This document shows, in pieces, positions 51,724-54,844 of a DNA stretch of 64,000 nt. Source of the stretch: Laspinema sp. D2d (lineage in GTDB: Bacteria > Cyanobacteriota > Cyanobacteriia > Cyanobacteriales > Laspinemataceae). A model generated the notes under the pieces. That model was given only the letters and a program-made list of their open reading frames with translations, was not told the origin of the DNA and searched no databases. A program made the translations under genes and the position numbers. Numbering within the stretch: position 1 is the first letter of the stretch; each line of letters begins with the position of its first letter. The stretch spans positions 57,472 to 121,471 of the forward strand of contig NZ_JAMXFC010000007.1 in NCBI RefSeq assembly GCF_025370755.1, read 5' to 3'.

Positions 51724-53784
51724 ATGACGCAGCAACGTAAGCGGGCATTAATTACCGGCATCACCGGCCAAGACGGTTCTTACTTAAGCGAATTATTACT
51801 AGAAAAAGGCTATGAAGTCCACGGGATTATCCGCCGGACTTCCACCTTTAATACCGACCGGATCGATCATCTTTATGTGGATCCCCATAGCGAAGCAGCC
51901 CGGTTATTTCTACATTACGGGGACTTAACCGATGGGGTCACTCTCCGCCGGATTCTTGAAGAAGTCAAACCCGTGGAAATTTACAACCTGGGGGCTCAAT
52001 CTCATGTCCGAGTCAGCTTTGACTCCCCAGAATACACCGTGGATACCGTGGCAATGGGAACCCTGCGCCTGTTAGAAGCAATCCGCGACTACCAACAGCG
52101 CACCGGGATCCAAGTCCGGTTTTATCAAGCGGGTTCCTCGGAGATGTTTGGGAAGGTCCTAGAAGTCCCCCAAAAGGAAACGACCCCGTTTTATCCCCGC
52201 AGTCCCTATTCCTGCGCCAAAGTTTACGCCCATTGGCAAACGGTCAATTATCGGGAATCCTATGATTTATTTGCCTGTAATGGTATTTTGTTCAACCATG
52301 AATGCGTGATTGATCAAACGCCGGTGTTCATCCGTCAGGATGGATTAATTGACCTGGTGTCCATTGCGGAAATTGTCCCCCATCATACCGATGCAGGTCA
52401 CAAAAATCGCTACACGACAGATATTAAAGATGGGAATGGGTTTGAAGTCTGGGATGCCACCGGATGGGCGCAAGTGACTTGCATGACTGCTACCTGGAAT
52501 GGGGCCACAGAACAAGCCAATAAAACCGTACATCGGATTGCCGCAGAGGGCGCGGTTTATCATGCCACAAGCGATCATGTGGTGTTTGTGGAACAAGGAG
52601 AATTGGCCGTCGAAAAACCTGCCGGTGAGGTCAAAGTTGGGGATTCCTTGGCTTTGATTGACTTGCCGCGATCGCCTGAACAAATTGACATCACCGAAAC
52701 TGAGGCATGGTTACTCGGGGTATTCGTTGCTGCCGCAGAAATTGACAGTCAAAGTCAAGTAACTTTGACAATTCCCGACGCAACTTTAACCAGTCGCCTC
52801 GCCGCCTCTTGGCGAAAAATCTCCGGCGGAAATTGCGATCGCCTTGCGGCATCCCGTCTCCAGTTATCCGGCAACGCCGCCTACAGTGACTACTTACGAT
52901 CCGAACTGTACAGCAAATCCCAAGATAAACGCATTCCCAAACGGATTCTGAATGCAGGCGATCGCGAACGGTTAGCCTTTTTAGACGGATTTAAAGCAGT
53001 TTCTCCCCTTGCTGGAGAATCCTTCACCGTCCAAACTCCCTCTGCCGTCCTCGCCGCCGGACTCTACTGGATGTCCGTCACCACCCTGCAACAACCCGCC
53101 TGGATTGCCACCGAATCCCAAGGCGACTGCCTCCAGTATCAAATTCACATCAACGCCACCCGACCCCAAGACAACACCCCGGCCCAAGTTGTCACCGCTG
53201 AACCCATCCACTATCAAGGATGGTTGTTTGACTTGGCAACTACTAGCGGGACCTTTCATGCCGGAGTCGGCCAGGGCTGGATCCATAACTCCCCCCGCCG
53301 AGGCGAAACCTTCGTCACCCGGAAAATTACTCGGGCCGTCGCCCGCATTGTTGCTGGAAAGCAGAAAAAACTCTTCCTCGGTAACCTAGATTCTAAACGG
53401 GACTGGGGCTATGCCAAAGACTATGTTCGCGCCATGTGGTTGATGCTGCAACAAGACGAACCGGATGATTATGTGATTGCCACCAATGAAACTTATACCA
53501 TCCGCCAATTTTTGGATTTAGCCTTTAATTTCGTTAATCTGAATTGGGAGGATTATGTGGAATTCGACTCCCGGTATCTGCGTCCTGCGGAAGTTGACTT
53601 ATTAATTGGTGACCCCAGTAAAGCAAAGGAAAAATTAGGGTGGGAACCCTCGATTACCTTTGAACAATTGGTCGCCTTAATGGTGGATTCTGACCTTAAG
53701 GCGATCGGGGTAGAGTCTCCCACGGGACAATCCATTATCGATCGCGCCTTCATCCGCCAAGACAGTGGTCACATGGTGGACTAA
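51724..53784 (+). CDS. gmd: GDP-mannose 4,6-dehydratase containing an in-frame intein
   Basis: Gmd converts GDP-mannose to GDP-4-keto-6-deoxymannose, first step to GDP-fucose. The 686-aa ORF has NADP loop 'ITGITGQDGSYL' (about 11-22), 'QAGSSEMFG' and the catalytic YSCAK. Where the family has continuous 'LFNHESPRRGETFVTRK', a 329-aa segment interrupts between Glu193 and Ser523: residues 194-522. Removing this gives 357 aa, the normal length. The frame is intact with no stop, so splicing would yield an active enzyme. The gene precedes GDP-fucose synthase. No frameshift, so it is not a pseudogene. Confidence 0.93.
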   Translation: MTQQRKRALITGITGQDGSYLSELLLEKGYEVHGIIRRTSTFNTDRIDHLYVDPHSEAARLFLHYGDLTDGVTLRRILEEVKPVEIYNLGAQSHVRVSFDSPEYTVDTVAMGTLRLLEAIRDYQQRTGIQVRFYQAGSSEMFGKVLEVPQKETTPFYPRSPYSCAKVYAHWQTVNYRESYDLFACNGILFNHECVIDQTPVFIRQDGLIDLVSIAEIVPHHTDAGHKNRYTTDIKDGNGFEVWDATGWAQVTCMTATWNGATEQANKTVHRIAAEGAVYHATSDHVVFVEQGELAVEKPAGEVKVGDSLALIDLPRSPEQIDITETEAWLLGVFVAAAEIDSQSQVTLTIPDATLTSRLAASWRKISGGNCDRLAASRLQLSGNAAYSDYLRSELYSKSQDKRIPKRILNAGDRERLAFLDGFKAVSPLAGESFTVQTPSAVLAAGLYWMSVTTLQQPAWIATESQGDCLQYQIHINATRPQDNTPAQVVTAEPIHYQGWLFDLATTSGTFHAGVGQGWIHNSPRRGETFVTRKITRAVARIVAGKQKKLFLGNLDSKRDWGYAKDYVRAMWLMLQQDEPDDYVIATNETYTIRQFLDLAFNFVNLNWEDYVEFDSRYLRPAEVDLLIGDPSKAKEKLGWEPSITFEQLVALMVDSDLKAIGVESPTGQSIIDRAFIRQDSGHMVD
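52303..53289 (+). mobile_element. Intein inside Gmd (329 aa, Cys1...His-Asn/Ser+1)
   Basis: The insert begins with Cys ('CVIDQTPVFIRQDG') and ends with His-Asn, followed by Ser as first C-extein residue. The Block B-type motif TSDH (intein residues 89-92) and the block F-G end 'GWLFDLATTSGTFHAG' plus 'GWIHN' fit a class 1 intein. Residues 130-240 resemble a DOD (LAGLIDADG) homing endonuclease: 'WLLGVFVAAAEI' and 'RIPKRILNAGDRERLAFLDG'. Both catalytic acidic residues are lost, so homing is probably dead while splicing may persist. The insertion is between conserved NHE and SPRRGE. Confidence 0.92.
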
Positions 53785-53899: not shown

Positions 53900-54844
53900 A
53901 TGGAATCATTAGACTTAAAAGACAAACGCATTCTTGTCACCGGAGGTGCCGGATTTTTAGGGCGGCAAGTTATCGACCAATTAACCGAAAATGGGGCCGA
54001 TCGCGATAAAATCACCGTCCCGCGATCGCGTGATTCTGACCTGCGAATCATGGAAGTGTGTCAGCAGGTTGTCCAACAACAAGATATTATCATTCACCTC
54101 GCTGCCCATGTCGGCGGAATTGGATTAAATCAAGAAAAACCCGCCGAACTCTTCTATGACAACTTGATGATGGGGACACAACTCATTCATGCCGCCTATC
54201 AAGCAGGTGTGCAAAAATTTGTTTGTGTCGGCACCATCTGCGCCTATCCCAAATTTACCCCCGTCCCTTTCAAAGAAGATGACCTCTGGAACGGATATCC
54301 GGAAGAAACCAATGCGCCTTACGGGATTGCCAAAAAAGCCTTATTAGTCCAACTGCAATCCTATCGGCAACAATATAATTTTAACGGGATTTATTTACTG
54401 CCAGTTAACTTATATGGACCGGAAGATAACTTTGACCCCAGTAGTTCTCACGTTATTCCGGCTTTAATTCGCAAAGTTCATGAAGCGCAAGAACGAGGTG
54501 ATCAAGAATTAGTTGTCTGGGGCGATGGTAGCCCTTCTCGGGAATTTCTCTATTCTACCGATGCCGCCCGAGGCATTGTGATGGCTACCCAATCCTATCA
54601 TAAATCCGACCCGGTTAACTTGGGAACAGGGTATGAAATCACCATTCGCAATTTAATTGAACTGATTTGCGAATTAATGGGATTTGAGGGCAAATTAGTC
54701 TGGGATACGGACAAACCCAATGGTCAACCTCGCCGCTGTTTAGATACAGAACTGGCTCAAAAAGAGTTCGGATTTACGGCAGAGGTTGGGTTTAAAGAAG
54801 GCTTACAAAAAACCATCGCCTGGTATCGGGAAAACGCAGCTTAA
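53900..54844 (+). CDS. fcl: GDP-L-fucose synthase
   Basis: This is a 314-aa SDR-type epimerase-reductase that turns GDP-4-keto-6-deoxymannose into GDP-L-fucose. The NADP loop GGAGFLG is at residues 16-22, the active-site Cys and Tyr/Lys in '[14 protein letters not shown]' and '[12 protein letters not shown]', and a '[21 protein letters not shown]' block follows. It lies directly after gmd on the same strand, 115 bases away, and completes the GDP-fucose pathway. The ATG is supported by the family start. Confidence 0.95.

Follow-up and report, generated by a model that had tools for sequence, protein, structure and literature searches.

We found that the GDP-mannose 4,6-dehydratase gene (gmd) of Laspinema sp. 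D2d, which lies in the 64,000-nucleotide stretch of DNA analysed here (the window), is interrupted by what we take, at a probability of about 0.93, to be a class 1 intein of the LAGLIDADG type that no longer homes and is maintained by descent. Its insertion site is empty in relatives, its splicing residues are conserved, the gene is under selection and its distribution among genomes is sporadic. Together with a predicted HINT and LAGLIDADG fold, these observations support the suggestion of an earlier note on this DNA that the insert is an intein. The insert is predicted to splice itself out of the dehydratase and, as both of its endonuclease motifs have lost their acidic residue, has probably lost the ability to cleave DNA.

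The gmd precursor frame (51724..53784, + strand, stop included) is 686 aa long. It consists of an N-extein of 193 aa ending in GILFNHE (51724..52302), the 329-aa intein running from Cys1 to His328-Asn329 (52303..53289), and a C-extein of 164 aa plus stop that begins with Ser+1-PRRGETF (53290..53784), all on the + strand. The intein is bounded by the empty site in relatives and has an AlphaFold2 model; it comprises 329 codons without a stop, with Cys first, His-Asn last and Ser following. The earlier note had placed an in-frame 329-aa insert between NHE and SPRRGETF at exactly these coordinates, and the Cys start, His-Asn end, adjoining Ser and TxxH block that it described are all there, the block reading TSDH. 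Excision would leave 686-329 = 357 aa, the dehydratase length that it had given. Two family models identify the host as Gmd, TIGR01472 with 541.5 bits (the cut-off being 415) and PF16363 with 474.8 bits. Both match in two stretches around the insert, as does the PDB Gmd structure 1n7g, whose alignment covers residues 3-193 and 521-660 (E 1.7e-141). Within the intein, again on the + strand, block B (TSDH) occupies residues 89-92 (52567..52578), and blocks F and G, WLFDLATTSGTFHAGVGQGWIHN, whose columns are mostly invariant in our alignments, lie at 53221..53289. Between them is a degenerate LAGLIDADG endonuclease region, recognised by PF14528 matches in the family, the model and a higher dN/dS, for which we chose the approximate limits of residues 131-291 (52693..53175). 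It holds the remnants of motif 1, LLGVFVAAAEI (52711..52743), with Ala in the acid column, and of motif 2, DGFKAVSPLA (52984..53013), with Ser in the acid column.

Intein-free gmd loci had no residue at all between NHE and SPRRGE (16 of the 16 fetched). At the nucleotide level, in another genus of the family (g5), comparison of G013, which carries a 1053-bp insert, with the insert-free G011 and G012 showed no base gained or lost, and the flanks were 88-100% identical per 60-bp bin; flank identity in this comparison followed no clear pattern with distance that would mark a co-conversion tract. As is usual for class 1 inteins, the insert thus sits in frame at an exact site and is absent from homologues. 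The site falls within GILFNHESPRRG, the most conserved 12 residues of a 78-row extein alignment, in a stretch of mean identity 0.97-1.0, a figure inflated by the picking of rows with a pattern that requires the motif (L077 yielded no row).

Block B of inteins is Thr-x-x-His. Among 34 distinct cellular copies of the Gmd intein, TxxH was present in 33, with SSDH in L048; position 1 was Cys in 33 and Ser in one, and all 34 ended in HN. T89, D91 and H92 were invariant among 14 aligned inteins, and every one of the eight copies from the genus of D2d had Cys1, a block B of TSDH or TRDH, and HN followed by Ser. The D2d intein therefore has the C-terminal Asn, usually within His-Asn, and the Cys, Ser or Thr at +1 that mark the class. 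The sections consulted of two papers define class 1 by a first residue of Cys, Ser or Thr (PMC5222942) or name Cys and Ser alone (PMC7664689). Class 3 is not supported by the published motif rule, Cys1 being present and block F reading FDL without Cys, and a group I or II intron was set aside because the insert is a single reading frame whose two ends coincide with splicing blocks. At one locus in Oscillatoria princeps (L042:2998-4047), the intein begins with Ser instead of Cys and its endonuclease acids are intact.

An AlphaFold2 model of the D2d intein, built from the alignment of the 34 distinct cellular copies, had a mean pLDDT of 91.0 and a pTM of 0.91. Its top PDB matches were archaeal TliVMA inteins (7qsu, E 1.2e-18; second match, E 3.3e-17), with PhoVMA, 2cw7 (PI-PkoII), PI-PfuI and PI-SceI among the further matches, and it also matched I-DmoI and intein endonucleases. 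TliVMA and PhoVMA (7qsu, 7qss, 7qst), the best structural matches, share the layout of HINT plus LAGLIDADG with the model but reside in another host protein and are only 15-17% identical to the D2d intein. A HINT fold is thus predicted from the model, and a homing endonuclease domain between the splicing blocks from the model and family homology. A profile of the 34 cellular copies matched PI-PkoII (E 2.1e-6) and VMA inteins (E 5.6e-5); PF14528 (LAGLIDADG_3) matched 20 of the 34, the D2d copy not among them, and PF14890 (Intein_splicing) 13 of the 34. On the D2d intein itself PF14890 scored 18.4 bits (E 0.002), under a cut-off of 35.8 that is a detection threshold and no mechanistic criterion, and phmmer against the PDB gave a best E of 0.28. 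These single-sequence scores are weak; it was through its alignment and the model that the family was recognised. A whole-genome PF14890 search listed other inteins of the D2d genome and not that in Gmd. Further intein-bearing genes of this genome encode DnaB (L125), DnaX (L127) and probably ThyX (L126), which, unlike Gmd, are replication or nucleotide enzymes and usual intein hosts; a search of the genome with the D2d Gmd intein did not pick up the inteins in these three.

We found endonuclease decay in every sampled genome of the Laspinema-like genus to which D2d belongs; the earlier note had noticed neither this degeneration nor the spread of the intein family. The LAGLIDADG acids are catalytic, and an active endonuclease has an acidic residue in each motif. 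At the intact locus L012 the motifs read LLGIIAAEGYV (acid Glu) and QGFNAGDGLK (acid Asp), whereas in the genus of D2d motif 1 reads LLGVFVAAAEI or LLGVLVAAAEI and motif 2 DGFKAVSPLA, so that both acids are gone, replaced by Ala and Ser, in 8/8 copies, that of D2d included. Both acids are kept in 21 of the 26 other cellular copies, at least one being missing from L015, L016, L048, L054 and L063. Within the genus, dN/dS was 0.098 (95% 0.060-0.149) for the splicing part of the intein and 0.264 (95% 0.170-0.390) for the endonuclease part, and the endonuclease value exceeded the other in 1997 of 2000 codon bootstraps. By comparison, five intact-motif pairs gave pooled values of 0.067 for splicing and 0.059 for endonuclease parts, with dS near or past saturation; these were chosen by us as near pairs from nine computed, with L012 in two. 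In the same vein, identity between D2d and L038 falls from 77% over the splicing part to 50% over the endonuclease, against 80% and 83% for L038 and L012. The rate excess on the D2d branch affected both parts of the intein, and when the two parts were contrasted on that branch by a Fisher test, the difference was significant with only two of six outgroups. At 0.26, the dN/dS of the endonuclease part lies well below 1, and the domain is still constrained, perhaps because splicing needs its fold.

In a tree of the splicing part, which omits L062 and L063, the sister of the genus of D2d is L038, whose motifs are intact (93/98, branch not starred), whereas in the whole-intein tree the genus clusters with the degenerate L016 and L015 (89/85, 88/83), a grouping that could reflect shared loss or a long-branch effect. 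The nearest relative differs between the two trees.

The presence of the intein in 8/8 genomes of the genus, none with a recognisable active endonuclease, and the purifying selection on its splicing part raise the question of whether it is kept as a post-translational switch, with conditional splicing tuning Gmd and hence the output of fucose-containing polysaccharide. There is precedent in the mycobacterial DnaB intein, for which stress-responsive splicing is described in the part consulted of PMC6195587. The need to splice, however, accounts for the purifying selection by itself, the tests made here give no sign of regulation, and most Gmd-matching genomes of the order show no such intein, so we consider a switch unlikely. 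We judge it very improbable that the element is instead an active mobile intein whose diverged yet working endonuclease still homes within the genus. The endonuclease dN/dS, which is not 1, and the continued match of the D2d model to intein endonucleases and I-DmoI would agree with such activity; against it are the replacement of both motif acids in all eight copies, the missing PF14528 match of the D2d copy, the relaxation of the endonuclease relative to the splicing part within the genus, and the lack of a second copy of the Gmd intein in the D2d genome.

The exteins give a clear signal of function: across 28 pairs within the genus, dN/dS was 0.026 for the N-extein and 0.041 for the C-extein, low values which indicate that Gmd function is under selection. 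A pseudogene, which the earlier note had named as one outcome that would count against an intein, is rejected by these values and by a frame that is open in 8/8 genomes of the genus. The gene is preceded by an undecaprenyl-phosphate sugar transferase gene and followed by a gene resembling GDP-L-fucose synthase, the next step of the pathway (53900..54844, + strand; NF047922, E 7.8e-88, 294.9 bits where the cut-off is 500), a setting that suggests GDP-fucose and exopolysaccharide synthesis. The D2d genome also encodes, on another contig (C54), an intein-free Gmd-like paralogue of 324 aa (L124:361-1332; TIGR01472, 349.8 bits where 415 is the cut-off), so the interrupted gmd may not be the sole source of activity. 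Least credible of all is a HINT-fold insert that no longer splices and either stays in or only self-cleaves, leaving Gmd inactive or repurposed: splicing of the D2d insert is a prediction from sequence and model and L124 could cover a lost Gmd, but the splicing residues are conserved in all eight genomes of the genus, the extein dN/dS values argue against a dead Gmd, and a retained 329-aa domain that breaks so conserved a stretch should abolish activity.

The intein was present in 14 of the 59 genomes of a first set. It occurred in 8/8 drawn from the genus of D2d, where five of the intein proteins are identical to copies in named strains (Phormidium pseudopriestleyi FRX01, Laspinema olomoucense D3b, Laspinema palackyanum D2a and two Oscillatoria), which suggests that the genus is Laspinema-like. 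Across the order, at least 19 of 388 genomes had a full-length intein match, with a Gmd match (E 1e-60) in 366, a count that misses copies split between contigs or diverged enough to break the match in two. Scanning genome contigs with two intein-internal peptide patterns returned 31 loci, all with the NHE| gmd junction and 30 with the HN|S junction readable as well. These loci span Cyanobacteriota, Chloroflexota, Thermodesulfobacteriota, Myxococcota, Sericytochromatia and one archaeon of the Thermoplasmata (Thermoplasmatota), many of them in metagenome bins, where contigs can be misplaced. Among 201 Chloroflexota genomes, 116 of them with a Gmd match, a full-length intein match was found only in the genome on which the search was centred. 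One Chloroflexota copy, in Anaerolineae (L063:3001-3738), has only 246 aa, much of the endonuclease being deleted, and is a step towards a mini-intein.

A quick tree of the exteins (78 rows, 33 with an intein; 30 of its 74 inner branches are open) required at least 15 changes of presence. The intein of Synechocystis salina (L045) clusters with the L011 and L012 inteins in the whole-intein tree (99/99), while in the extein tree L045 stands beside L019 and the exteins of L011 and L012 are elsewhere. Ten identical inteins were dropped before alignment, L061, cut by a contig end, is in none of the alignments, and L054 was left out of both of these trees. As read from sequence, the sporadic presence and the conflict between intein and extein trees form a pattern of repeated transfer and loss.

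Inteins at the same site in Gmd were also found on 11 distinct IMG/VR contigs (L100-L106, L114-L117), whose viral status rests on the IMG/VR assignment. They differ from the D2d copy in being 381-410 aa long and in keeping the endonuclease acids, both of which were present in 10/10 readable copies. Ten contigs had both junctions, with Thr first in six and Cys in four. The Thr1 inteins (L100:2998-4206, L101:2977-4152, L102:828-2003, L103:2986-4155, L104:2498-3670 and L105:2953-4182) keep TxxH, HN and Ser+1 and would use an uncommon splicing nucleophile. By sequence they would fall within the class 1 definition in the section consulted of PMC5222942; the corresponding section of PMC7664689 names Cys and Ser alone. 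Their homology to the cellular family is clear (hhalign of the six against the 34 copies, probability 100, E 2.5e-65). The Cys1 viral inteins L114-L117 end in GN, AN, AN and SN, missing the penultimate His, and the junction of L116 reads NHS in place of NHE. The Gmd of L101 has a second insert, of 391 aa, at FYQA|STSE (L101:1633-2805), with Cys first and Gly-Asn last followed by Ser, so that this enzyme seems to contain two inteins. In L103 and other viral inteins the endonuclease region has an extra stretch near SQREI..TGISRxFIRKI that looks helix-turn-helix-like by eye. Of ten proteins neighbouring viral gmd genes, three match PHROGs families, one of these being a DNA transfer protein. In tblastn searches for delivery by a known phage or plasmid, the D2d intein matched none of 50,697 phage records and none of 72,556 plasmid records; a Thr1 viral intein likewise matched none of the phage records.

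The earlier note named no published Gmd intein and left precedent in doubt. That doubt is answered by a 2022 paper (PMC9403480) which, in the sections consulted, reports a full-length intein in the gmd of Thermosynechococcus and describes type II inteins as having inserted into this gene. Those sections state no insertion site, which we took from our own Thermosynechococcus loci, L053 and L054: these share the host gene and the NHE|SPRRGE site with D2d and are homologous to its intein, with 50% and 48% identity respectively in the alignment to other Gmd inteins that the earlier note had proposed. Of the two LAGLIDADG acids, L053 retains both, L054 one and the genus of D2d neither. The C-extein of L054 (Thermosynechococcus M46_R2017_013) contains a break in the gmd frame in this assembly, whose contig is labelled with a coverage of 2.5. 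Our literature search, which left most subscription journals outside its reach, turned up no second paper on a gmd intein and nothing of the kind from the genus of D2d, other phyla or viruses. The D2d copy is thus not the first Gmd intein; it belongs to a Gmd intein allele family and has a degenerate endonuclease.

Taken together, these data suggest how the intein may work and how it may have arrived. After translation the insert would fold as a HINT domain, a thioester would form at Cys1, the N-extein would be transferred to Ser+1, and cyclisation of Asn329 would free the intein and yield a 357-aa Gmd that serves GDP-fucose synthesis. The family has probably spread horizontally, presumably by homing. 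With both catalytic acids lost, homing should be dead in the genus of D2d, and the intein would be inherited vertically there, since Gmd works only if the insert is removed exactly. A bolder scenario, which we regard as distinctly improbable, has one lineage carried among viruses, cyanobacteria, Chloroflexota and an archaeon on virus-borne gmd and then immobilised in Laspinema through the loss of its endonuclease, where it would be retained across the genus because conditional splicing controls the synthesis of fucose-type polysaccharide.

These results extend a carbohydrate-pathway host for inteins well beyond the one cyanobacterial genus found in print, and the Thr1 viral copies are candidates for the study of an uncommon splicing nucleophile. 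A single gene holds a series from the empty site through intact and lost motifs to the 246-aa L063 and the viral carriers, and because the whole series lies in one gene, both the homing cycle and the persistence of an endonuclease-dead intein may be testable with one assayable enzyme.
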